Shown piece by piece: positions 33,757 to 63,250 of a DNA stretch of 64,000 bases. Source of the DNA: Pocillopora verrucosa (lineage: Eukaryota; Cnidaria; Anthozoa; Scleractinia; Pocilloporidae); the NCBI RefSeq assembly GCF_036669915.1, contig NC_089319.1, positions 9,146,080 through 9,210,079 of the forward strand, written 5' to 3'. Position numbers and translations under genes: made by a program. The notes beneath the pieces are model-generated. The model worked only from the letters and a program-made list of their open reading frames with translations, made no database searches and had not been told where the DNA came from. How positions within the stretch are numbered: the stretch's first letter is position 1; each line of letters begins with the position of its first letter.

Positions 33757-36700
33757 TCACAAATCGGAATACATCAGGTACTGTTTTAACGAATGCGGAA
33801 CAGGCAGTTCTGGGATTCGTTGCATTCTACAACTGTTAATCCTCTTTCTTATAACAAGCCGGCAAAAATGTTGCAGTGACCGCGGTGAACTGGTCAGACG
33901 CTCCAGTTTGCGCCATTTCAAGTTAGTGCGCTTTGCGCGAGAGTTTTCGCGGCAAATCTCCCGCGAGTGCGGTCTATTTCCCTCGAATTCTAACAACAGC
34001 TTATACAAGTCTGGATTAAGAACTCTCATGGCGCTAGGGTCTTTAAAAGCTATGCAAGTTCCTTGGTGGAGCTGATCAACGCTTGCTCCAAGCTTGAGAA
34101 AAAGTTTAATGCAATCCAACTGTACTTGAAGAGACTTCTGATTATGGCCATACCCTAACCTAGTTACAGCTATGCTTAACGCTGTATTCTTCCCTCGATC
34201 CACAAAATTGGGATCAGCGCCGAAGTCCAACAGGATCTTACCACAATCATGGGACGAATTCTGCGCAGCAAGAATTAATGGTGTGGTGTATGTCGCTCTG
34301 TTCACATCTGCGCCACGCTCCGCCAAGATTTTAACGCAATCGACGTAGTCACCTTCAACGGAAACCATCAGTGGTGTCTTGGGCAGCATGTCTACATCTT
34401 CATATATGTGGTTAGGATTTGCCCCGCAGTCCAAAAGCAGTTTAGTGCAATCCGCATGTCCTTGACAAGCTAAACAAATTGGAGTCATGTTTCCAGTGTG
34501 TGTTGGTGCGTCAACATTAACACCCGCTGATAAAAGCAGCTCCATGCACTTATAGTGACCTTCCTGACTACTAAGGTGCAGAGGAGTGATTTTCTCTATA
34601 TAGGTTTCTGCGCATGCACTCACCCCCGCATTTAAAAGAATCTCAATGCACTCAGGGTGCCCGCGTTCTGCAGCAGCGTGAAGCGGTGTTGCTCCATCAA
34701 TAACTTTACTTTCAGGGTCTGCCCCTAGAAGAAAAGCAATTAACTGTTAGAAAATACTCTGCTACCCTTTTAGAATGCTGAAACGAAACCAGACTCCAAA
34801 ATCGAGGGCAAAAAAAACTACTCTCAGTAAAAAGCTATGAGAAGTTTTGTCCTCCTCTAACCCAACATCAAGGGAAAAAAATTTGTTGGTTTTTCTGAAA
34901 CTGTATATGGGAATAGCTTATTAAGACTCTGTCTCTAAACAACAGGGGTAGTTTTCTAAAGTTGAGTTGGTTCAAATTCAAAATCAAACTCGTAAAAAGT
35001 TTGGAACAGGCTGAACCAGGCCTAAAAAATGTAATTATATTGAAACATCATGTTGAGCCTCTAAAAGTTCCCAACTGATATCAGTTCAATTGCTAGATGA
35101 TAAAACCAATCCCCACCAGGTGGTTTCTCAGATCAATATCAGTATCTGGGCAACTGCCCACCTACCCCTCCCCTAACCCAACATTAACCTTGATTTGTCA
35201 TCAATTGACTGTTGTTGGGTTAGGGGAGGGGTAGGTGGGCAGTTGCTCAGATACTAATATTGATCCAGTTTCTCCATACATGGCTCCTCCCATAATTTTT
35301 CTTGGAGCCCAACAAAACACCCACAGCATACAGTAACTCTGAAAATTCCTCTCAAACCTTTAAACCCCAGCATTTACATGTAACTTCTCCTTACAGTTCC
35401 AGTTTATCTTGCAAACAGGTTATGGAAACAGAGAAGCTTATAAGTTAGAGGGTGTTGACTTGTTGTAACACTACATTCTCCAATTTAATTAATAAGGAAA
35501 TGTAAGGGAGTTAGGAGGGAGAATTGCTCACTGGATCTTAGGGTTAAAGGGTTAAAAATAGCTCACAACCACAATACTCTGAAAATAAACAGAATTCCTA
35601 CCAGCAGTTAACAGCATGTTGATACAATCTGTTAAGCCTTCCTGGGAAGCAATAAACAATGGCGATGCCTTATCTACAGTCAATAAACTGATATCTGCCC
35701 CCTCTTTTAGTAGTAGCTTTAAGCAAGCCTTATGTCCATATTGAGTGGCAGTGAACAAAGGTGTGGCACCATCACTGTTTTGTATGTTAATGTCTGCCGC
35801 GAATGAGAGAAGTATTTTAATGAAGTCTTCACGACCAGCAAATGCTGCTTCATGTAAAGCACTCCATCCTCCAACATCCTGACTGTTTACATCTAAACTG
35901 CATTCTAAGAAAATCTGAGACGAACCAAAATGAGAAAACAAAGAGGTTACAGATTAATAAATTCATGAATACCATCCTTACCAAAAATGTTAGAGGCAGT
36001 ATGGTAATTTCACTCACAATGTCAAGTATGAAAGGGTTTTAAAAAAGTAGCTTATTCCAGGCATTCAGCAATTTAATTATGGTAATTGCACTGAGTGGAG
36101 TGCAGTTTGGACTGAAATTAAACACATTATTTCAAAATCAAACAGGCATGCAGGGCGAGTTTGATTTGAAGTCAAAAGTATGATTTTAGACCAAAATTTC
36201 ATGACACAAAGTTAAATTTCCATTCTATTACATCTATTTTAAAATGAAAAATGTAGCCCCTTAATAAAAAAATGTTTTTCAGTCTCTACAGATATTTTTG
36301 TGATTTTAAGTATATTGAGCTTGTTTGCAAAAAGTTGTAAAGCTTGATTGACTTCTCTCAACAAGCCTTGAAGTTTGATTGGTTGTTGTGTTAAAGTAAA
36401 CTGTCACATTGGCTGGGAAGACAATGCAGTTTGGAGCCTATAACAATGTAATTTGTCTGTAAATCGCTACAGTGAGAGCCAATCAGATTGCAAGGATTTC
36501 AAAATGGATCTAATCAATCTGTAGATGGTCTGACAGTAGCAGCTGAGTGGAAAACGTGGGGGGTTTAAGTAAGGTTCCATAAACGAAATTATGCAACCCA
36601 TTCCAAACATCCATCACATTTTTCACTCCTTCCCTACTTTCATGCCATTTACTATTAGTGCCTCTATTTATTTACTGAACCTCTGGAACAAGCTAGTAAT

Positions 36701-39894: not shown

Positions 39895-41742
39895 TTACAT
39901 GATAGAGCATTTTCGTTTTTTTCTTTTGTTACACAATATGTTCTGTGATGGACTAAGAAAACCTTGGAATACTGTCATTGAGCCACCCAAGTGAACGTCC
40001 ATCTCTCCGGTAACTTTCAGCTCCGTTTTCAGTTGCCATACATTGCTTTCAGCGTTGTAACACGCGACTGATAATTTTGTAAAAGTATTCCGGCTCACAA
40101 CGTCTTCTTCCAGAACATACAACTCATCATCGATGGCCAACAGGCCTTGAAATGAGGTCCATCTGTTGAAGCTTTTAATCAGCTGCCATTCGTTGGTTTC
40201 TTCACTGTACATTTCACACGTGAGTTGAATTACGTTAGGCATATCACTCTGGGTTCCGGCGATGAATATTTTTCTGTTTACCGCTGCACCACAAGCCCTC
40301 TCTCTCGCTACTTGGATGTCCGCCAGTTTGTTCCACTGTTTTCTGCGAAGATCATACCTATCAACATCATTCACGAGCTTGCTTTGATACATTCCAGACC
40401 ACACCTTACCACTAACGAAATAGATAAAACTATCGTGGACCACAATACTAAAACGGCTTCTCCAATCCAAATAATCAGTCGATAATATGTCTTCCCATGA
40501 GTCGGAATCTGGTTTATATTTCGCAAGAACGATGCGGTCTTTTTTGTAAAGGAACGGTCTGTACAAGTTACAAACGAAGGAATCTATTACCTTCTCTTTT
40601 GAGAACAAAGCGTACATTTCATCCTCATAAACAAAAAGTTCAAGTAAATCTCTGTTTTCTACAGAAGGCATCGAGTTCCAAGCCTTTGAGTGTAGATTAT
40701 ACCATGTGACATCAAGTCTCCAGGATTCATGATGATACGGGACTAGCTCGACTCTTTTTTTAATATACAAGTTATCACGAAGGAAGAAAACACGTTTCCA
40801 GTTGATTAAGTATACTGGAATTTCATCAAACTTGCACCACCGATCCTCACGAGGAAAATAACCGACAATCGTGAAATAATCTCCGTTCCTAGAGTAGGTG
40901 ATCATAACAGGGGTCTCAAGAGACTTTCTGGGCTTGTGACGAAGAGTATCGAAACTTTTATAGTCAATTAACTCGACAGCCTTTTCCACGAGCTCGATAC
41001 AGTCTTCATTGTCTCTTACCAAATCATTTGTCACGACATCACTGAATAGAAAGTCACGCGATATGTAAACCAGTCGAACGTAACGAAATAACTCGGGAAA
41101 ATGATGTTTTCGTTTGTTTTTGTCGTGATTAATCCAGGCTAGAATGGTATTTAACACATCTTCCTCGGCGCTAACATGTAGCTCATCGCTTGAAATCAAC
41201 ATTGCAAGTTCCTCTCTCGACATTTTCAAAACATCTTCACACTTCGTAGAGAGCAATACATTGAAATTTGCAAGGATTGACTTTTTGGTCTTGCATAAAA
41301 GTTCCTCACAGTGATATTCGCAAGCAAAACGGAGGATTGAAATACAATTTGAAGTATTCAATTTCTGTACCAGAATCTGCGTAGCTAGGGTCTTCAGCTT
41401 TTGAATAAACAAATAATCTGCCATCACAACCAAGTCTCTGGCATCATCTTCATCCAGTATCTGTACATTACCGGTGTAAATAAACTCCAATGTGTTTCTC
41501 ATAACAGATTCGGTAAACATCTCTAAGCGAACCACTCCTTCTTTGGACTCCTTCATGTCGCTGTTCAGCAGCTTTTCAAAGAAAGGACTCGCCTCCGAAA
41601 GAGCTTTTCTGTGAGCTTTGAACTCGCCATCTTTGACCACCAAAGTAACATCGCACGGCTGATAGAGGCCATCTTTTGAGATTTCTTCTTCTGCTGGATT
41701 AACTTCGTCAGATGTCAGAACAGTGTGAGGAATCGATGCCAT
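39895..41742 (-). CDS. BTB-BACK-kelch protein A with C-terminal CaaX box
   Basis: Intronless, 615 residues. BTB domain at about 20-125 (QPCDVTLVVKDGEFKAHRKA), BACK at about 130-240 (ELAMLISSDELHVSAEEDVL) and diverged kelch repeats at about 290-590, with units such as NDVDRYDLRRKQWNKLADIQ and YSEETNEWQLI. Proteins of this layout (KLHL family) usually act as substrate adaptors of Cullin-3 ubiquitin ligases. The ending is the notable part: residues 605-615 read NKRKKRKCSIM, a polybasic run plus CaaX, strikingly like K-Ras4B. Met at the CaaX end favours farnesylation, so the adaptor is predicted to be membrane-tethered; I know of no standard KLHL with this. The start MASIPHT matches the other loci here. 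It is the outlying member of the array, and its upstream DNA is similar to that of B and psi-B'. It does not belong to a named vertebrate KLHL class that I can recognise. Confidence 0.93.
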   Translation of the reverse strand: MASIPHTVLTSDEVNPAEEEISKDGLYQPCDVTLVVKDGEFKAHRKALSEASPFFEKLLNSDMKESKEGVVRLEMFTESVMRNTLEFIYTGNVQILDEDDARDLVVMADYLFIQKLKTLATQILVQKLNTSNCISILRFACEYHCEELLCKTKKSILANFNVLLSTKCEDVLKMSREELAMLISSDELHVSAEEDVLNTILAWINHDKNKRKHHFPELFRYVRLVYISRDFLFSDVVTNDLVRDNEDCIELVEKAVELIDYKSFDTLRHKPRKSLETPVMITYSRNGDYFTIVGYFPREDRWCKFDEIPVYLINWKRVFFLRDNLYIKKRVELVPYHHESWRLDVTWYNLHSKAWNSMPSVENRDLLELFVYEDEMYALFSKEKVIDSFVCNLYRPFLYKKDRIVLAKYKPDSDSWEDILSTDYLDWRSRFSIVVHDSFIYFVSGKVWSGMYQSKLVNDVDRYDLRRKQWNKLADIQVARERACGAAVNRKIFIAGTQSDMPNVIQLTCEMYSEETNEWQLIKSFNRWTSFQGLLAIDDELYVLEEDVVSRNTFTKLSVACYNAESNVWQLKTELKVTGEMDVHLGGSMTVFQGFLSPSQNILCNKRKKRKCSIM

Positions 41743-44658: not shown

Positions 44659-46584
44659 CTATGAACCTAAAGAATTTTCTGTCGATGTCGAAGATCGAGG
44701 CGTATCCTGAGTGGTAACAGATACAAAACTTTTCAATTTTGAATTATCGAGCCAACCTTTGAAAATTCTTATTGAACAAACGTTCAGTACAGAAGACATC
44801 CTCGTCAGGAGTTTGTTCGGGCTCCATCTGTTCCTCTCAAAGTCGTAGTGTTTTACTGTCTGGATTTTCGTGATCACACTTTCAATCAAAGCATACACCT
44901 CGCCATCGACAGTCACGAAGTTTATAATTCTATTTGGATAAGATCCTTCGTTGAAGCCTTCGATGAAGTGCCATTCATTTGTTTCTTCATCGTAAATTTC
45001 ACACTGATTCACTTGTGCTCCCCTCTTAACACCGCCAGAGATGATAACTTTCCCTTTTCCTGCAGCACCACTAGCCCGCTTTCTTGCTATTTGAAGACCT
45101 GTTAGTTTTTCCCACTGGTCTGTGTTAAGGTCGTACCTGTCCACATCATTCAGAAACTCGCACTCGCGTCCGTGCCATTTTATTCCGCCTATGAAATAAA
45201 TGAAATTGTTATGGGCCACAATGGTAAAATGCTGTCTCAGATCCAAATGATTGAAAGATGTGACTTCTTTCCACTTGTGTAATTCAGGTTTATATTGCAT
45301 AATGAAGGAAACATGTTTCTCTTCGGTTCCTTCCTTGGCACATCGTCGGCCGAAAAGACGTTTTGAGTGTCTTCTTCCATTTCGAATCCGCCAACCACGA
45401 TAATGATCCCAACCACATCGTTCCAAGAACAAAGCAAACATTTCATCTTTATTGTTGACAAATATCTTCCAAAGACATGTGTTTCCCTCCGAGACTGGTA
45501 ACGAGGTCCAAGCGTTCGAGTAGGGATCGTAGCATGACATATGCAGTCTACAGATATCTTGTGGGTATTCAACTGACCCTATTCTTGTGCTGTACAACTT
45601 ACTATTGCAGGAAAAACTTCGGCTAGCTCTCGATTCTGAAGGCCTCTCGTCACCCAAAGTATACCAGCTATTTTCACGGGGAAAAAAGCACATTAAATAT
45701 TTTTGACTGTAAGTGATCAAAACAGAGCTTTCAAAAACCTTTCTAGGCGTGTAATGGAGATTATCTGGGAGATTGTCAAAGTTCTTAGAGTCAAGTGTGC
45801 CGATAGCTTTATGACCAAGATCCAGACAACCTTTATTGCCTTTGACCAATTCATTTGTCACGACATCATTGCTCAGAAAGTCACGCGATATGTGAAGTAG
45901 TCGAACGTGACGAAACAACTCTGCGAAGTAATTCTGTCGCTTTCTTTTTGCGTGATGAATCCAGGCAAGAATGATGTTAAACACATCTTCCTCGGTGCTG
46001 ACATGCAGCTCGTCGCTGGAAATCAACATTGTAAGTTCCTTGATCGACATTCTCAGAACATTCTCACGATTATGAGTGAATATGGTAGTGAAATTTGAGA
46101 GGGTAAAAGTTTTGGTCCTAGAGACAAGTTCCTCGCAGTGATATTCATCAGCAAAACGGAAAATTGAAATAAAATTTGAAATATTACATTTTTGAAATAA
46201 AACTTGGGCCGCCAAAATCTTCAAGTTCGGTAGAAGCAAATAATCTGCCAGCATAATCAAATCTCTGGCCTCGTCTTCATCCAGTATCTGTACATTACCG
46301 GTGTATATAAACTCCAATGTGCTTCTCATAAGAGAGTCGGTGAAGATCTCCAAGCGAACTACTCCTTCTTTGCACTCCTTCGTGTCGCTGTTCAGCAGCT
46401 TTTCAAAGAATGGACTCGCCTCTGAAAGAACTTTTCTATGAGCTTTGAACTCGCCATCTCTGACTACCAAAGTAACATCGCACGGCTGATCGAGTCCATC
46501 TTCTAAGAAAAACACTTTACCAGAGATTTCTCGTGTAGGACAAACTTTGTCAGATGTTAAAAAAGTGTGAGGGATCGCTGCCAT
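44659..46584 (-). CDS. BTB-BACK-kelch protein B
   Basis: Intronless, 641 residues. BTB at about 25-130 (QPCDVTLVVRDGEFKAHRKV), BACK at about 136-250 (ELTMLISSDELHVSTEEDVF) and kelch repeats at about 290-600 (NDVDRYDLNTDQWEKLTGLQ, with a clear GG at FIYFIGGIKW and VIISGGV, and YDEETNEWHFI). Predicted Cullin-3 adaptor by family. Unlike A and C' it ends STENSLGS with no CaaX cysteine, so it would be soluble. This is the intact partner of the pseudogene at 54616-56400. Start MAAIPHT corresponds to MASIPHT of its paralogues. The TGAGTCAGCA motif lies 45 bases upstream. Confidence 0.92.
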   Translation of the reverse strand: MAAIPHTFLTSDKVCPTREISGKVFFLEDGLDQPCDVTLVVRDGEFKAHRKVLSEASPFFEKLLNSDTKECKEGVVRLEIFTDSLMRSTLEFIYTGNVQILDEDEARDLIMLADYLLLPNLKILAAQVLFQKCNISNFISIFRFADEYHCEELVSRTKTFTLSNFTTIFTHNRENVLRMSIKELTMLISSDELHVSTEEDVFNIILAWIHHAKRKRQNYFAELFRHVRLLHISRDFLSNDVVTNELVKGNKGCLDLGHKAIGTLDSKNFDNLPDNLHYTPRKVFESSVLITYSQKYLMCFFPRENSWYTLGDERPSESRASRSFSCNSKLYSTRIGSVEYPQDICRLHMSCYDPYSNAWTSLPVSEGNTCLWKIFVNNKDEMFALFLERCGWDHYRGWRIRNGRRHSKRLFGRRCAKEGTEEKHVSFIMQYKPELHKWKEVTSFNHLDLRQHFTIVAHNNFIYFIGGIKWHGRECEFLNDVDRYDLNTDQWEKLTGLQIARKRASGAAGKGKVIISGGVKRGAQVNQCEIYDEETNEWHFIEGFNEGSYPNRIINFVTVDGEVYALIESVITKIQTVKHYDFERNRWSPNKLLTRMSSVLNVCSIRIFKGWLDNSKLKSFVSVTTQDTPRSSTSTENSLGS

Positions 46585-47730: not shown

Positions 47731-49591
47731 TCACACGATTGAGCACTTTCGCTTGTCTCTTCTGTGATGAGTTTGTCTGGTCTGTGATGTATCCTGCGTT
47801 GAAAACGGTGTAAATGGTGAGGAACTTAGAGACCCCTGAAACACTTTCATTGTGTCGCAAATTTTAAACTGTCGCTGGCTCTTTCATCCCATGGAATTGA
47901 AATTTCAGTTTTCAGCTTCCATTCATCGCTTTCTGGGTCGTAACATTGAACTCTTAACAGTCCCGTCACGCTTGGTCGATAATAGCCCACAACATATACC
48001 TCGCCATCTACGGCAATCAAACCTAAAAATGCCTTTAGCTCCACGCTAAAGCTTCTAATAAACTGCCATTCATTTGTTGTTTCATTGTGCACTTCACACA
48101 GGAGTTCATCTTGGCCTGGTTTCATTTCATTTTTAGTCCATCCAGCAATATATATTTTTCCGTTCGCCGCTGCTCCCCAAAGCTGTTTCTGTCTCGCCGC
48201 CTGAATGTCTGCTGGTTGATCCCATTTTTTTTTGCAAAGATCGTACCTATAAACATCGCGTTGGGGCCCTCCTCCCCATGTTTCTATACCACCAATGAAG
48301 TAAACGAAGTTTTCGCTGGGCATAACGCAATAATATCTTCTACAAGCCAGACCCTCAGTGAATAATACATCCTCCCATAAATTGGAATCTACTTTGTACT
48401 TTAAGATGACTATGCTACATCTAGCCGGCCAGAGGATGTCGGTGACAGGCGGCCCTTATGACGTAAGAACAAAGCATACATTTCATCATTGTAAACGAAG
48501 AGTTTCTTTAAAACTAGGCCGTCATTTAATGGTGGTAAAAACTTCCATCTGCAAGAGTGTGGATTATAACAAGAGATGCGAAGTTTCCGAGAATAACTTG
48601 CATTTGATGGTTTTCGCCTTGTACCGTACATTTTATTGCGACAAAAGAAAATACCATCGTCACTTTGCAAATATATTGGCTCTTTTTTATACCAACGGTC
48701 CTCGCGTGGAAAATAAAAAAGGTATTTTCCTTCCGTTTTGTAGGCGACAATTGCAGAGGAATCTAGACACTTTCTCGGTTTGCGATCAAGAGTATCAAGT
48801 GTCAAACTCATCACTGAGTCGATTAATTCAATAGCTCCTTTCGCAAGTTCCAGACAGTCTTCATCGTTTTTAACCAACTCATTTGTCACGACATCACTAC
48901 AAAGAAAGTCACGTGATACGTAAACTAATCGAACTCGACGAAATAGCTCGGGAAAATGACTTCTTCGATTGTTTTTGTCGTGATTAATCCAGACTAGAAT
49001 GATACTGAACACATCTTCCTCGGCGTTAACATGTAGCTCATCGCTTGAAATAAAAATTGCAAGTTCCTCTTTGGACATTTGCAAAACATCTTCACGCTTC
49101 GCAGAGAATAATGCTCTGAAATTTGCAAGGATAATTTGATAGGATGGTCTTGCATAAAAGTTCCTCGCAGTGATATTCATCAGCCAAATGGAAAATTGAA
49201 ATACAATTTGAAATATTCAATTCTTTCAATAAGGTTTGCGTTGCCAGGGTCTTCAGGTTCTGGAGCAACAAGTAATCTGCTATCACAACCACGTCTCTGG
49301 CATCATCTTCATCCAGTATCTGTACATTACCGGTGTAAATAAATTCCAATGTGCTTCTCATAAGAGAGTCGGTGAAGATCTCCAAGCGAACTACTCCTTC
49401 TTTGCACTCCTTCATGTTGCTGTTCAGCAGCTTTTCAAAGAATGGACTCGCCTCTGAAAGAACTTTTCCATGAGCTTATCTCTGACCACTAAAGTAACAT
49501 CATAGGGCTGATCGGGTTCTTCTTTCGTGAACCACATTTTACTTGGGATTTCTCGCTGAGATATGCAAGAAGTCGGTGAAATTGATGCCAT
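47731..49591 (-). pseudogene. Broken BTB-BACK-kelch gene psi-C (paralogue of C')
   Basis: Aligns along its length with the intact gene at 58073-59974 but has several lesions. From the 5' end: a 10-base deletion in the BTB region between 49477 and 49478; a net 4-base insertion near 49135-49145, after the BACK start; a 1-base deletion near 48452 in the kelch region; an 18-base in-frame loss near 48420; and a 1-base loss near 47875. No frame spans more than about 256 codons. The very 3' end still encodes RRDKRKCSIV and a stop in its own frame, so the CaaX tail predates the breakage. ATG position 49591 is still present. Probably non-functional. Confidence 0.9.
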
Positions 49592-51218: not shown

Positions 51219-52526
51219 CTAGTTCTTCATATAATCCCGCCATTCTGCGGCTTTAAACGCGAAATGGTACACTTCTCCATTTACTCTGTAGGAGGATCCA
51301 GCCGCTTGCCGTAACGTGGCAAAGTCAATAGCTTCATCAAGTTCATCTGTGAAGTGAACTCCTTCGCCCAAACGTGCCTCACGGTCATCCAAACTGTATG
51401 GGTTTTTACCTTTATTCACGCCTCGGTAAAGTGTTCCATCTTTTGGCTTTGACAAGTGAATAATTTCACACTCCCCTTCGCTAAGTGCGGTCTTCCAAGC
51501 ATGGATTATTGATGATCCACTGCATCCTAAAGGTCTGCCTGTTACACCCGTGCCGCCACTCGACTCTCCTTCATCTGAAACACCTTCTCTTCTCTCGTCT
51601 TCTCCTTCGCTTATCTCTGTAGCTGATAGATACACCCATTCACCGAAATCACTATCTGCTTCGCTTTCAGCACTTTCTGTTTGACCCTCCTCAAATTCTA
51701 TTCGGAACTCATCTCTATCGGCTCTTGTCACGGATGATGACGCACCCAGAACCTCGCTGTTTTCTCCACATTCGAACTTCGCCAAGTCATGATGGTCATG
51801 TGGATGGGTAACTTTGCCTCCTTTAAACAGAGTTCCGACATCATACACTCCTATTCCGTCCATGATGGGGGACATAACACCCTCCACCACGCCCCCGATA
51901 ATCGTCTGTGGGTCTTTACCCGTGGCAACATTAGTCCAAGCTTTGATTTGTCCGGCTGAAGTATACTTCCCTTCTACAGCCGACTCTACTCCAGTTGTTA
52001 TGCCATCCATCACAGCTCCCCCTGCGATACCCCCGGCAACCATTCCCACTGGACCGCCGGATACCCCTAGAACGCCCCCTACGACAACCCCGGTTGACCT
52101 TGAAGCCTTCTTCATTGCCTCATTCCCACTCTTTTTATCCCCGATGGCATAGTGTATTCCACCTTTGATGTGCCCTATCACAGGCATGCCGTTGGCTACT
52201 TCATTGGTGGTGTGAATGACCACTTTGCCAGACTCGACCGCAGCTTCAGCCGTATGCTTTGCTAACTTGACGACCGTCTTATTTAAGGTATCCACCCGTC
52301 CAAAAGTGACTCCAGAAGCGGCTGCCACGGCACCTGTTGCTACGGCAGAGCCTACCGTTTCTCCAACGTGACGCACAACCGTCTTAGAGGCGGCATTTCC
52401 CGTAAACTTGGCGCATTCGACCGCAGCATTATTCAGAGCATCAACCTGACCAAACGTAACTCCAGCGGCAACTGAAGTGGCACCAGTAGCGATTGCTCCT
52501 CCGACTGTACTCACTTCGTTTCCCAT
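51219..52526 (-). CDS. MGNEVST-1: unnamed protein, truncated by a nonsense codon
   Basis: Intronless, 435 residues. Paralogue of the 579-residue protein at 61511-63250 and nearly identical over the first 240 residues. It starts MGNEVST, an N-myristoylation-type motif. Two copies of a motif of about 45 residues follow (GVTFGQVDALN and GVTFGRVDTLN), then a glycine-zipper-like stretch (about 145-175) and an acidic linker that is 82 residues shorter than in copy 2. The last part is a domain beginning TLYRGVNKG. The frame stops directly after WRDYMKN because TGG in copy 2 is TAG here (51219-51221). The sequence beyond remains open up to the SSKCS region, so the stop appears recent. The CSLT ending of copy 2 is also changed here (SVA, then no stop). 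The truncated protein may still be made, or this copy is decaying. I do not recognise the family. Confidence 0.8.
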   Translation of the reverse strand: MGNEVSTVGGAIATGATSVAAGVTFGQVDALNNAAVECAKFTGNAASKTVVRHVGETVGSAVATGAVAAASGVTFGRVDTLNKTVVKLAKHTAEAAVESGKVVIHTTNEVANGMPVIGHIKGGIHYAIGDKKSGNEAMKKASRSTGVVVGGVLGVSGGPVGMVAGGIAGGAVMDGITTGVESAVEGKYTSAGQIKAWTNVATGKDPQTIIGGVVEGVMSPIMDGIGVYDVGTLFKGGKVTHPHDHHDLAKFECGENSEVLGASSSVTRADRDEFRIEFEEGQTESAESEADSDFGEWVYLSATEISEGEDERREGVSDEGESSGGTGVTGRPLGCSGSSIIHAWKTALSEGECEIIHLSKPKDGTLYRGVNKGKNPYSLDDREARLGEGVHFTDELDEAIDFATLRQAAGSSYRVNGEVYHFAFKAAEWRDYMKN

Positions 52527-54615: not shown

Positions 54616-56400
54616 CTATGATGCTAAAGAATGTTCTATCAATGTCGAACATCTGGACGTATCCTGAGTGGTAACAGATACAAAACTTTTCAATTTTGAA
54701 TTGTCGAGCCAACCTTTGAATCTTTCAATCAAAGCATACACCTCGTCATCGACAGTCACGAAGTTTATAATTCTATTTGGATAAGATCCTTCGTTGAAGC
54801 CTTTGATGAGGTGCCATTCATTTGTTTCTTCATCGTAAATTTCACACTGATTCACTTGTGCTCCCCTCTTAACACCGCCAGCGATGATAACTTTCCCGTT
54901 TCCTGCGGCACCATTAGCCGCTTTCTTGATATTTGAAGACCTGTTAGTTTTTCTTACTGGTCTGTGTTAAGGTCGTACCTGTCTACATCATTCAGAAACT
55001 CGCACTCGCGTCCGTGCCATTCTATTCTGCTTATGAAATAAATGAAATTTTCATGGGCCACAATGGTAAAATGCTGTCTCACATCCAAGTGATTGAAAGA
55101 TGCGATTTCTTTCCACTTATGTAATTCAGATTTATATCGCATAATGAAGGAAACATGTTTCTCTTCGGTTCCTTCCTTGGCACGTTGTCGGCCGAAGAGA
55201 CGTTTTTAGTGTCTTCTTCCATTTCGAATCCGCCAACCACGACAGTGATCCCAACCACATCGTTCCAAGAACAAAGCAAACATTTCATCTTTATTGTTGA
55301 CAAATATCCTCCAAAGACATGTGTTTCCCTCTGAGACTGGTAACAAGGTCCCAGCGTTCGAGTAGGGATCGTAGCATGACATAGGCAGTCTACAGATATC
55401 TTGTGGGTATTCAACTGACCCTATTCTTGTGCTGTACAACTTACTATTGTAGGAAAAAATTCGGCTAGCTCTCAACTCTGAAGTCCTCTTGTCACCTAAA
55501 GTATACTAGCTATTTTCACGAGGAAAAAATATTTTTGACTGTTGGTGATTAAAACAGGTGTTTCAAAAACCTTTCTAGGCGTGTAATGGAGATTATCCGT
55601 GAGATTTTCAAAGTTCTTAGAGTCGAATATGCTGATAGCTTTATAAACGACATCCACATTCATTGACCAGACCTTTGACCTTTGACCGGTTCATTTGTCA
55701 CGACATCATTGCACAGAAAGTCACGCGATATGTGAAGCAGTCGAACGTGACGAAACAACTCCGCGAAGTAATTCTGTCGCTTTCTTTTTGCGTGATGAAT
55801 CCAGGCAAGAATGGTGTCAAACACATCTTCCTCGGTGCTCAACATTGAAAGTTCCTTGAACGACATTCTCAAAAAATTCTCACGATTCTGAGTGAATAAG
55901 GAGGTGAAATTTGAGAGGGTATAAGTTTTGGTCTTAGAGACAAGTTCCTCGCAGTGATATCCATCGGCAAAACGGAAAATTGAAATAAAATTCGAAATAA
56001 TACATTTTTTAAATAAAACTTAGGCTGCCAAAATCTTTAACTTCGGTAGAAGCAAATAATCTGCCAGCATAATCAAGTCTCTGGCATCATCTTCATCCAG
56101 TATCTGTACATTACCGGTGTATATAAACTCCAATGTGTTTCTCATAAGAGAGTCGGTGAAGATCTCCAAGCGAACTACTCCTTCTTTGGACTCGTTCATG
56201 TCGCTGTTCAAAAGCTTTTCAAAGAAAGAACTCGCCTCTGTCAGAAATTTTTTATGAGCTTTGAACTTGCCATCTCTGACTCCCAAAGTAACATCGCACG
56301 GCTGATCGAGTCCATCGTTTGAGTGGAACACTTTGCCAGAGATTTCTTGTGTTGGAACAACTTTGTGCGATGTTAGAACAGTATGGGGGATCGATGCCAT
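54616..56400 (-). pseudogene. Broken BTB-BACK-kelch gene psi-B' (paralogue of B)
   Basis: Aligns with 44659-46584 but is not translatable. The ATG at 56400 opens an intact BTB domain, then a CAA-to-TAA change (near 56022) ends the frame after KLKILAA. Further on there is a 24-base in-frame loss of the ISSDELHV region near 55839, frameshifts near 55675 and 55205, a 1-base loss near 54917, and an in-frame loss of roughly 115 bases before FKGWLDNSK. A BTB-only product of about 126 residues could still be made from the first frame. The far end still aligns with the C-terminus of B. Confidence 0.9.
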
Positions 56401-58072: not shown

Positions 58073-59974
58073 TCACACGATTGAGCACTTTCGTTCGTCT
58101 CTTCTGTGATGAGTTTGTCTGGTCTGTGATGAATCCTGCGTTAAACACGGTGTAAATTGTGAGGAACTTAGAGACCCCTGAAACACTTTCATTGTGTCGC
58201 AAATTTTAAACTGTCGCTGAGCTCTTTCATGCCATGTAATTGAAATTTCAGTTTTCAGCTTCCATTCATCGCTTTCGGGGTCGTAACATTGGACTCTTAA
58301 CAGTTCCGTCACGCTTGATCGATCATAGCCCACAACATATACCTCGCCATCTACGGCAATCAAACCTAAAAATGCCTCTCGCTCCACGCTAAAGCTTCTA
58401 ATAAACTGCCATTCATTTGTTGTTTCATTGTACACTTCACACAGGAGTTCATCTTGGCCTGGTTTCATTTCATTTTTAGTCCATCCAGCAATATATATTT
58501 TTCCGTTCGCCGCTGCTCCCCAAAGCTGGTTCTGTCTTCCTGCCTGAATGTCTGCTAGTTTATCCCATTTTTTTCTGCAAAGATCGTACCTATAAACATC
58601 ACGTAAGAGCCTTCTTCCATATGTTTCCGTACCGCCAATGAAGTAAACGAAGTTTTCGCTGGGCACAACGCAATAATGTCTCCTATAAGCCAGACCCTCT
58701 GTTAACAATACGTCCTCCCATGAATTGGAATCTACTTTGTACTTTGAGATGATGTTGCCGCTTTCCTTTTCAAAACGACATCTACCAGACCAGACGACGT
58801 CGGAGACAGGCCACCACTTATGAAATAAGAACAAAGCATACATTTCATCATTGTAAACGAAGAGTTTTTTCAAAAGTGTGTTGTTATCAAATGATGGTAA
58901 AGACTTCCATCTATAAGAGTGTGGATTAAAACATAAGATGCGAAGTCCCCAAAAATAACTTCTATTTGATAGCTCACGCCTTGTACAGTACATTTTATCG
59001 CGACAAAAGAAAATACCGTCGTCACTTTGCAAATATATTGGTTCCTTTTTATACCACTTATCCTCGCGTGGAAAATAAAAAAGGAATTTTCCTTCCGTTG
59101 TGTAGGCGACAATTGCAGAGTACTCTAAACACTTTCTCGGTTTGCGATCAAGATTATCAAGTTCATCAACACTGTTAGAGTCGATTAATTCAATAGCACC
59201 TTTCGCAAGTTCCAGACAGTCTTCATTGTTTTTAACCAACTCATTTGTCACGACATCATTACAGAGAAAGTCACGCGATATGTAAACCAGTCGAACTTGA
59301 CGAAATAGCTCGGGAAAATGACTTCTTCGATTGTTTTTGTCGTGATTAATCCAGGCTAGAATGATACTTAACACATCTTCCTCGGCGCTAACATGTAGCT
59401 CATCGCTTGAAATAAAAATTGCAAGTTCCTCTTTGGACATTTTCAAAACATCTTGACGCTTTGCAGAGAATAATGCACTGAAATTTGCGAGGATAAACAT
59501 TTTGGTCTTGCGTAAAAGTTCGTCGCAGTGATATTCATCAGCCAAGTGGAAAATTGAAATACAATTTGAAGTGTTCAATTTCTTAATCAAGGTTTGCGTT
59601 GCCGGGGTCTTCAGGTTCTGGAGCAACAAGTAATCTGCTATCACAATCAAGTCTCTGGCATCATCTTCATCCAGTATCTGTACATTACCGGTGTAAATAA
59701 ACTCCAATGTGTTTCTCATAGCAGAGGCGGTGAAGATCTCTAAGCGAACCACTCCTTCTTTAGACTCCTTCATGTCGCTGTTCAGCAGCTTTTCAAAGAA
59801 AGGACTCGCCTCTGAGAGGACTTTTCGGTGAGCTTTGAAGTCGCCATCTCTGACGACTAAAGTGACATCATAAGGCTGATCGAGTTCTTCTCTCGTGAAC
59901 CACGCTTGAATTGGGATTTCTCGATTTGAATTAACTCGCTGAGATATGCAAGCAGTCGGTGAAATCGATGCCAT
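58073..59974 (-). CDS. BTB-BACK-kelch protein C' with C-terminal CaaX box
   Basis: Intronless, 633 residues from the Met at 59974; this start was chosen because MASISPT matches MASIPHT of A and psi-B'. An in-frame Met at 60019 would add 15 residues. BTB at about 25-125, BACK at about 130-240 (ELAIFISSDELHVSAEEDVL), and kelch repeats at about 280-600 (FVYFIGGTETYG, LRDVYRYDLCRKKWDKLADI, NGKIYIAGWTKNE, EVYNETTNEWQFIRSF, GEVYVVGYDRSS, YDPESDEWKLK). It ends RRDERKCSIV, a basic patch plus CaaX; Val is less decisive than Met for choosing between farnesyl and geranylgeranyl. Predicted to be a membrane-anchored Cullin-3 adaptor. Intact partner of psi-C at 47731-49591. Confidence 0.93.
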   Translation of the reverse strand: MASISPTACISQRVNSNREIPIQAWFTREELDQPYDVTLVVRDGDFKAHRKVLSEASPFFEKLLNSDMKESKEGVVRLEIFTASAMRNTLEFIYTGNVQILDEDDARDLIVIADYLLLQNLKTPATQTLIKKLNTSNCISIFHLADEYHCDELLRKTKMFILANFSALFSAKRQDVLKMSKEELAIFISSDELHVSAEEDVLSIILAWINHDKNNRRSHFPELFRQVRLVYISRDFLCNDVVTNELVKNNEDCLELAKGAIELIDSNSVDELDNLDRKPRKCLEYSAIVAYTTEGKFLFYFPREDKWYKKEPIYLQSDDGIFFCRDKMYCTRRELSNRSYFWGLRILCFNPHSYRWKSLPSFDNNTLLKKLFVYNDEMYALFLFHKWWPVSDVVWSGRCRFEKESGNIISKYKVDSNSWEDVLLTEGLAYRRHYCVVPSENFVYFIGGTETYGRRLLRDVYRYDLCRKKWDKLADIQAGRQNQLWGAAANGKIYIAGWTKNEMKPGQDELLCEVYNETTNEWQFIRSFSVEREAFLGLIAVDGEVYVVGYDRSSVTELLRVQCYDPESDEWKLKTEISITWHERAQRQFKICDTMKVFQGSLSSSQFTPCLTQDSSQTRQTHHRRDERKCSIV

Positions 59975-61510: not shown

Positions 61511-63250
61511 TCATGTTAAAGAACATTTGGATGAGGTACTAACATCTCTTATTTTTACCAGAGTGTCTCTCTGTTCCATCACCTCAGCTATATGAGGGCT
61601 AAATCGGTAATGGTTTGCACTACCATAAGTGGTCTTGATAACTTGGAATTCATCTATACTATGAAGAGTTCTGACCGTGCCTTCTTGTTCAAGCGTCCAG
61701 TTCTTCATATAATCCCGCCATTCTGCGGCTTTAAACGCGAAATGGTACACTTCTCCATTTACTCTGTAGGAGGATTCAGCCGCTTGCCGTAGCGTGGCAA
61801 AGTCAATAGCTTCATCAAGGTCATCTGTGAAGTGAAATCCTTCGCCCAAACGTGCCTCATGGCCATCCGCACTGTATGGGTTTTCACCTTTATTCACGCC
61901 TCGGTAAAGCGTTCCATCTTCTAGCTTTGACAAGTGAATAATTTCACCTTCTCCTTCGCTAAGTACGGTTTTCCAAGCATGGATAATTGATGATCCACTG
62001 CATCCTAAAGGTCTGCCTGTTACACCCGTGCCGCCACTCGACTCTTCTTCATCTGAAACACCTTCTCTTCTCTCGTCTTCTCCTTCGCTTATCTCTGTAG
62101 CTGATACATACACCCATTCACCGAATTCACCATCTGCTTCGCTTTCACCACTGTCTGTTTTGCTTTCCTCGACTTCCCTTTGACTCTCCTCAAATTCTGT
62201 TTCCCTTGCCTCCCCTGCTGAATGCTCCATCCTTCTAAGGACTCCACCCTTTTCGTCACTTCCTAGACCTTCTGCTTTCCTTCCCTCGCCAACCAATCGA
62301 CCCACTCCCTCAGCGTCTTCGCTCGATCTATCTTCTGCCTCCCTTCCATTAGTGTGTGGTTGATCCTCACCTCTATCGGCTCTTGTCACGGCTGATGACG
62401 CACCCGAATCCTCGCTATTTTCTCGTTCCGCCTTGGAATGATTTGATACAGGTTTTGACTTTTCGGAATCGGATTCAATTGGAACTTCTACATGTTCGAA
62501 CTCCGCCAAGTCGTGATGGTCATGTGGATGCGTAACTCTACCTCCTTTAAACAGAGTTCCGACATCATAACCTCCTACTCCGTCCATGATGGGGGACATA
62601 ACACCCCCCACCACGCCCCCGATAATCGTCTGTGGGTCTTTACCCGTGGCAACATTAGTCCAAGCTTTGATTTGTCCGGCTGGAGTATACTTCCCTTCTA
62701 TAGCCGACTCTACTCCAGTTGTTATGCCATCCATCACAGCTCCCCCTGCGATACCCCCGGCAACCATTCCCACTGGACCGCCGGATACCCCTAGAACGCC
62801 CCCTACGACAACCCCAGTTGACCTTGAAGCCTTCTTCATTGCCTCATTCCCACTCTTTCTGTCCCCGATGGCATAGTGTATTCCACCTTTGATGTGCCCT
62901 ATCACAGGCATGCCATTGGCTACTTCATTGGTGGTGTGAATGACCACTTTGCCAGACTCGACCGCAGCTTCAGCCGTATGCTTTGCTAACTTGACGACAG
63001 TCTTATTCAAGGTATCCACTCGTCCAAAAGTGGCTCCAGAAGCGGCTGCCATGGCACCTGTTGCTACGGCAGAGCCAACTGTTTCTCCAACGTGACGTAC
63101 AACCGTCTTGGAAGCGGCATTTCCCGTAAACTTGGCGCATTCGACCGCAGCATTATTCAGAGCATCAACCTGACCAAACGTAACTCCAGCGGCAACTGAA
63201 GTGGCAGCGGTGGCGATTGCTCCTCCTACTGTACTCACTTCGTTTCCCAT
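61511..63250 (-). CDS. MGNEVST-2: unnamed protein with dual lipidation motifs and ART-like domain
   Basis: Intronless, 579 residues, complete. The start MGNEVST fits the N-myristoylation pattern (Gly2, Ser6). Residues 1-47 and 51-96 are tandem versions of one motif (GVTFGQVDALN, GATFGRVDTLN). Residues 105-240 contain PVIGHIKGGIHYAIGD and a glycine-zipper-like run (GGPVGMVAGGIAGGAVMDG, 157-175) that could insert in or pack against membrane. Residues 250-410 are an acidic Ser/Glu/Asp-rich linker. Residues about 440-560 form a folded domain with TLYRGVNKG (447-455) and LGEGFHFTDDLDEAIDFA (468-485). By eye this recalls the opening motifs of ADP-ribosyltransferase-like and DUF3990-like folds; a catalytic Glu was not identified. 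The last residues, SSKCSLT, place Cys fourth from the end, a weak CaaX. There is no signal peptide. The family is not recognised, and the biochemical role is unknown. Confidence 0.88.
   Translation of the reverse strand: MGNEVSTVGGAIATAATSVAAGVTFGQVDALNNAAVECAKFTGNAASKTVVRHVGETVGSAVATGAMAAASGATFGRVDTLNKTVVKLAKHTAEAAVESGKVVIHTTNEVANGMPVIGHIKGGIHYAIGDRKSGNEAMKKASRSTGVVVGGVLGVSGGPVGMVAGGIAGGAVMDGITTGVESAIEGKYTPAGQIKAWTNVATGKDPQTIIGGVVGGVMSPIMDGVGGYDVGTLFKGGRVTHPHDHHDLAEFEHVEVPIESDSEKSKPVSNHSKAERENSEDSGASSAVTRADRGEDQPHTNGREAEDRSSEDAEGVGRLVGEGRKAEGLGSDEKGGVLRRMEHSAGEARETEFEESQREVEESKTDSGESEADGEFGEWVYVSATEISEGEDERREGVSDEEESSGGTGVTGRPLGCSGSSIIHAWKTVLSEGEGEIIHLSKLEDGTLYRGVNKGENPYSADGHEARLGEGFHFTDDLDEAIDFATLRQAAESSYRVNGEVYHFAFKAAEWRDYMKNWTLEQEGTVRTLHSIDEFQVIKTTYGSANHYRFSPHIAEVMEQRDTLVKIRDVSTSSKCSLT

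Follow-up and report, generated by a model that had tools for sequence, protein, structure and literature searches.

KLHL adaptors select the targets that are destroyed by Cullin-3 ubiquitin ligases, and K-Ras4B is an example of a protein in which a run of basic residues accompanies a CaaX box, in that case CVIM. A CaaX motif contributes to the Golgi location of RhoBTB3 (PMC4931677), and the BTB domains of RhoBTB proteins are described as able to assemble Cullin-3 ligases; FBXL2, a ubiquitin-ligase substrate adaptor, is geranylgeranylated by GGTase3, which changes its location (PMC7729025). We describe kelch A, a gene in the 64,000-nucleotide stretch of DNA of which a part is shown above (hereafter the window; C8:9146080-9210079 of a 353-Mb, 52-contig assembly, the genome examined here), together with its relatives: eight genes for BTB-BACK-kelch proteins that form one clade, five of which end in a strict CaaX box. 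The best reading of the sequence evidence, to which we assign a probability of roughly 0.6, is that these are prenylated, membrane-anchored, putative Cullin-3 adaptors.

Kelch A matches the Pfam domains BACK (5e-23), BTB (2e-20) and Kelch_6 (3e-10), and the PDB entries closest to it by sequence are KEAP1, KLHL3, KLHL11 and KBTBD2. Together with kelch B and kelch C' in the window, and with five paralogs elsewhere in the genome (L012, L013, L014, L017 and L018; Table 1), it reaches or exceeds the Pfam cut-offs for BTB, BACK, Kelch_1 and Kelch_6; by domain make-up, all eight belong to the BTB-BACK-kelch (KLHL) family, and each is an intact single-frame open reading frame (ORF) that runs from BTB through kelch. 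CaaX tails close three of the five kelch loci of the window (A, C' and a decayed copy of C), with the shared pattern [K/R]KCSI[M/V]. Translation of the ORFs bears out the C-termini that a preliminary description of this DNA had given for kelch A (NKRKKRKCSIM) and C' (RRDERKCSIV). Its further statement that the tail is conserved at three loci, one of them a pseudogene, holds for A, C' and the decayed C copy, but kelch B and its own decayed copy lack the tail. In the decayed C copy, the tail (stop at 47731-47733) lies in a different frame from the ORF upstream.

Across the genome the tails occur at dispersed loci, as CSIM, CSIV, CSVL, CSVM, CLIM and CCSM. A strong polybasic run (6 of 7 residues) is peculiar to A; the other five tailed members have two to four basic residues among the six that precede the Cys. 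The K-Ras4B-like layout proposed in the preliminary description is thus partly upheld: A does combine basic residues with a CaaX box ending in Met, but the strong run is found in A only, and its box is CSIM, not CVIM.

The genome was searched with C' (86 matches; 70 of 237 candidates scored) and again with L017 (104 matches; 71 of 250 candidates scored); among the candidates scored, the second search places the same eight kelch genes at the top ranks. Our control set, which is part of the 150 scored BTB matches in the genome, comprises single-frame ORFs of at least 330 residues from 78 loci; removal of repeats sharing their last 200 residues left 67, and a BTB-BACK match was present in 65. Intron-bearing genes contribute no true C-terminus to this table. 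Strict CaaX boxes terminate 5 of the 8 clade members, 1 of 36 other ORFs with a kelch match and 0 of 21 BTB ORFs without one; for a Cys at position -4, the corresponding counts are 6 of 8, 1 of 36 and 0 of 21. The Fisher P of 0.0003 for strict CaaX is descriptive only, because the rows are related. The sole exception outside the clade is L004, a 476-residue ORF that ends in CRLS with no basic residues and that we judge to run past an exon end; none of the 27 non-clade kelch ORFs of at least 540 residues has a Cys at -4.

The clade of eight was picked by search rank after the tails were known, and was then supported by a tree made without them: among 35 kelch ORFs from which the last 25 residues had been removed, the six genes with Cys at -4, plus B and L018, form a single clade (support 100/99). 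On this tree the Cys at -4 requires three changes, compared to a shuffled mean of 5.7; an equally low number was reached in 2 of 500 shuffles, and the starred branches of the tree alone force two changes. We conclude that the CaaX box probably arose in, or close to, the common ancestor of the clade, and that a loss of the tail in B is probable, since B lies inside the CaaX clade. Searches of viral contigs (with C' and with an alignment of A, B and C') and of genome contigs (with that alignment) found no relatives. On contig C10, a related piece at 20.51 Mb (L056) can be aligned with the clade proteins no further than about residue 500, and its tail could not be read. On contig C12, more than 10 BTB-kelch ORFs are clustered at 15.27-15.36 Mb (the C12 loci of L019-L037) and branch in the tree close to the CaaX group; acidic runs terminate several of these C12 ORFs (L019, L029 and L034).

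Self-comparison of the window reveals a tandem duplication (~44.5-53.2 kb versus ~54.4-64.0 kb), with ~87-92% identity in the main pieces and 76% in one end piece. Each unit carries B, C and a further gene, MGN, and the two units have decayed in complementary ways: only the first retains an intact B, and only the second retains an intact C and MGN, such that each gene is intact in exactly one unit. The duplication may be a haplotype artefact of assembly. Because the units are a tandem duplication that includes a decayed C, the three tailed loci of the preliminary description resolve into two lineages (A and C) and a recent copy of C.

How far do these tails exceed chance? A CaaX box with at least three Lys or Arg among the preceding six residues stands before 3 of the 6882 stops in the six frames of the window, whereas 15 Markov sequences gave a mean of 0.33; all three are kelch ends (A, C' and the decayed C copy). 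CaaX boxes counted without the basic residues show no excess in the window (16 versus 14.8 in the Markov sequences for a narrower form of the box, 54 versus 48.9 for a looser one). We rejected the idea of an inherently rare DNA motif: genome-wide, the 18-base pattern K-C-S-[I/V/M]-x-stop has 18 matches, five of which are these kelch ends, and its reversed control has 21. What counts as evidence is the position of the tail and its retention.

A and C' are 59% identical over 597 aligned residues, with a nonsynonymous divergence (dN) of 0.28 and a synonymous divergence (dS) of 0.68; by region, dS is 0.33 across the BTB-BACK half and 1.13 across the kelch half. Each of the three pairings of A, B and C' shows this asymmetry, dS of the BTB-BACK half being about three to four times below that of the kelch half. 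Gene conversion of the first half may have produced this pattern, and misalignment within the kelch half may contribute. The probability that a [K/R]CaaX-stop survives neutrally between A and C' is 0.006 at a distance (d) of 0.68 and ~0.0008 at d = 1.13; taken alone, this retention is suggestive only. We also simulated neutral evolution along the tree, with branch lengths converted by an assumed dN/dS of 0.41 and with a kappa of 2 in the Hasegawa-Kishino-Yano (HKY) model. All five strict boxes survived in 0 of 60,000 runs, in 1 of 60,000 with branches halved and in 128 of 60,000 with branches quartered; for the four boxes other than that of L017, simulated from their ancestor, the counts were 0, 34 and 1402 of 100,000 with full, halved and quartered branches. 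The linkers of 17-29 residues that separate the box from the last strand are barely alignable, whereas A, C', L012 and L014 all retain K-C-S-[I/V]. On the strength of these simulations, and of a box that is retained beyond divergent linkers, we take the tail to be under selection. Third-codon letters differ among the tails and all three stop codons are used, which argues against recent copying.

That the clade tails constitute a working prenylation signal seems to us quite likely. A Cys at -4, an aliphatic residue at a2 and an acceptable X are together present in five of the eight members, including A and C'. In humanized yeast, CSIM and CLIM are fully modified by human farnesyltransferase (FTase) and ~50% by human geranylgeranyltransferase I (GGTase-I), and CSIM is cleaved with human Rce1, not with ZMPSte24 (PMC11152559); the same preference of CSIM, for Rce1p over Ste24p, is reported in PMC9231725. 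The GGTase-I consensus is given as Caa[L/F/I/M/V] (PMC11304957), which would cover CSVL and CSIV. The farnesyl anchor suggested in the preliminary description accords with the acceptance of CSIM by human FTase in yeast, but X is M, V or L, such that some members may use GGTase-I rather than FTase. According to the authors of the predictor PrePS, the Cys is preceded by a linker of ~11 residues that is flexible and, by preference, hydrophilic (PMC1175975). In a structural model of kelch A, of moderate quality (mean predicted local distance difference test score, pLDDT, 62), residues 595-615 follow the last strand (583-592) with pLDDT <50; the linkers were judged by eye, and that of A contains Ile-Leu. 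Prenyltransferase-like genes are present: Prenyltrans (PF00432) has seven matches at three loci in the genome, three being the number expected for the beta subunits of FTase, GGTase-I and RabGGTase.

The putative link to Cullin-3 comes from the BTB-BACK region, which aligns to KLHL3 and KEAP1. At the BTB site of phi-X-E, the Cullin-3 adaptor motif, the profile reads dmkes opposite DMSES of KLHL3, and M-[K/R]-E can be read by eye in seven of the eight clade sequences. Kelch B has Thr at phi (DTKEC versus DMKES); this substitution, coupled with its lack of a tail, points to B as a member that may have changed role. Examined for the six-bladed kelch propeller of the KLHL family, the model of kelch A contains many strands over residues 276-592, at the moderate confidence noted above.

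The conserved tails suggest that these adaptors work at membranes, and we hypothesize a division of labor. The flexible tail of 21-33 residues that follows the beta-propeller would present its Cys to a prenyltransferase: FTase for CSIM, CSVM and CLIM, and GGTase-I for CSVL and CSIV. The lipid, aided by the basic residues (strongest in A), would hold the protein on an inner membrane surface; there, the BTB dimer would recruit Cullin-3/Rbx1, and the kelch propeller would present membrane-associated substrates for ubiquitination. A bolder extension, which we consider rather improbable, is that the clade is lineage-specific and consists of lipid-anchored Cullin-3 ligases, its paralogs being sorted to different membranes by farnesyl (CSIM, CSVM, CLIM) versus geranylgeranyl (CSVL, CSIV) anchors. 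Should the genome belong to a symbiotic cnidarian, the symbiosome membrane could be one target; in Aiptasia, this membrane is labeled by a farnesylated mCherry-CaaX (PMC6219564).

Several observations weigh against the interpretation of the clade as prenylated, membrane-anchored adaptors. Within it, B and L018 have neither a CaaX box nor a Cys at -4, L013 ends in CCSM, in which Ser at a2 puts it outside strict CaaX, and L017 has a net charge of 0 over the 12 residues before its Cys. One gain with two losses (B and L018) costs the same by parsimony as a loss in B alone combined with two gains, that of L017 being separate; these histories are equal because L017 and L018 are joined weakly (support 72/16). 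The tetrapeptide CSIV does not occur in the main texts of the four specificity papers in which it was sought, including PMC11152559, PMC9231725 and PMC11304957 (CSVL and CSVM were not sought). With quartered branches, the four-tip box is retained in 1.4% of neutral runs, and at the BTB-BACK dS (d = 0.33) the neutral survival P for A versus C' is 0.06. The tail family is known here from the sequence of one genome. What endures of the preliminary reading is a tail on full BTB-BACK-kelch proteins that paralogs on three contigs retain and that is almost absent outside one clade; its generality is reduced by the two members without a tail and by CCSM, which is not strict.

The two tailless members, the P of 0.06 at the lowest distance and a genome-wide DNA pattern no commoner than its reversed control would also fit an ancestral 3' end that read CaaX by accident, serves no function and has yet to decay. 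We consider such chance inheritance very unlikely, given that neutral runs at the estimated branch lengths never retained the boxes (0 of 60,000 and 0 of 100,000) and that the differing third-codon letters and the use of all three stop codons oppose recent copying. It is similarly implausible that A's basic run acts as a nuclear localization signal or contacts nucleic acid, with the Cys at -4 incidental: KRKKRK does fit the classical monopartite pattern, but in the other members the Cys and the aliphatic residue persist alongside fewer basic residues, and a nuclear localization signal has no need of a fixed distance to the stop. The 3' ends might instead be mis-modeled, the true last exon lying elsewhere, and the sole AATAAA within 1.5 kb of A is 13 bases after its stop; set against eight intact single-frame ORFs, BTB through kelch, and a tail that recurs at dispersed loci, this is the faintest of prospects. 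An alternative that deserves more weight, while still doubtful, is that the tail is prenylated and that the lipid serves protein contact, or sorting to endomembranes or the nuclear envelope, rather than a plasma-membrane ligase, with Cullin-3 perhaps uninvolved. Prelamin A ends in the same CSIM box (PMC11152559), and only two basic residues occur in the six before the Cys in L017 and L013; on the other hand, kelch A has its strong basic run, and M-[K/R]-E at the phi-X-E site in seven of eight members is as expected of Cullin-3 adaptors.

The kelch loci have other neighbors in the window (Table 1). The MGNEVS start of MGN fits an N-myristoylation pattern. MGN has nothing above the curated cut-offs in Pfam or NCBIfam and no PDB relative above cut-off; a genome search with MGN2, the intact copy, found only the two copies in the window, and its protein has no match among viral contigs. 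We considered MGN2 as a co-duplicated partner of CaaX kelch genes (it is duplicated with C and ends in CSLT), and rejected a general pairing because the genome search found only two MGN copies, both in the window. A resemblance by eye of the C-terminal part of MGN2 to an ADP-ribosyltransferase was supported by no search. Pfam also identifies a Kv-type channel gene in the window and, near the kelch array, an ankyrin-repeat ORF with a SOCS box, another type of ubiquitin-ligase adaptor. Together, these two genes point to an animal as the source of the DNA.

Table 1. Kelch loci, their C-terminal tails and neighboring genes (window positions, or contig for genes elsewhere in the genome)
Feature	Location	Strand	Description
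Kelch A	39895-41742	minus	BTB-BACK-kelch ORF, 615 residues; ATG to stop in a single frame
Kelch A tail	39895-39930	minus	NKRKKRKCSIM + stop
Kelch B	44659-46584	minus	intact BTB-BACK-kelch ORF, 641 residues; C-terminus ENSLGS, no CaaX
Decayed C copy	47731-49591	minus	several frames; RRDKRKCSIV + stop retained
First MGN copy	51219-52526	minus	early stop; when read on, no stop after KCS
Decayed B copy	54616-56400	minus	C-terminus SLAS, no CaaX
Kelch C'	58073-59974	minus	BTB-BACK-kelch ORF, 633 residues; C-terminus RRDERKCSIV
Kelch C' tail	58073-58108	minus	HRRDERKCSIV + stop
MGN2	61511-63250	minus	begins MGNEVS, ends KCSLT; CaaX-like box
Ankyrin-repeat ORF + SOCS box	33757-34746	minus	
L012	contig C10		C-terminus GNKKKCSVL
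L013	contig C8, ~4 kb before window		C-terminus HSCCSM
L014	contig C7		C-terminus YDKKKCSVM
L017	contig C10		C-terminus FDKCKCLIM
L018	contig C10, adjoins L017		C-terminus WKPVTV, no CaaX

With respect to known systems, the Cullin-3 adaptors KLHL3, KEAP1 and KLHL11 have the same Pfam domain order (BTB-BACK-kelch) and an aligned phi-X-E site; to this plan, the clade of kelch A adds a conserved basic/CaaX tail after the propeller. Among the open-licence papers listed by literature searches that paired kelch, KLHL or BTB terms with CaaX or prenylation, none pointed to a prenylated KLHL protein, which argues weakly for absence. The words 'kelch' and 'KLHL' do not occur in the main text of the prenylation papers PMC11152559 and PMC7902609; in PMC7889997, KLHL18 is named as a Cullin-3 adaptor and the CaaX belongs to another protein. 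The likenesses of kelch A to K-Ras4B (a basic run plus CaaX) and to prelamin A (an identical CSIM box; PMC11152559) are confined to the tail, the proteins being unrelated. RhoBTB3 resembles the clade in being a BTB protein with a CaaX motif, but it consists of a Rho-GTPase, two BTB domains and a BACK-like end, with no kelch propeller. FBXL2 is likewise a prenyl-tailed ligase adaptor, but of the F-box/LRR type that serves Cullin-1, rather than BTB/kelch. If kelch A and its relatives are indeed prenylated, a heritable lipid tail would tie a Cullin-3 ligase to a membrane, a role that FBXL2 and RhoBTB3 suggest for adaptors of other types; membrane-localized degradation would then be testable by a one-residue change, and the clade offers natural controls in the close paralogs B and L018, which have no tail. 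Prenyl-tailed ligase adaptors are thus already known (FBXL2, and RhoBTB3 by motif); what appears to be new here is the predicted presence of such a tail on kelch adaptors.
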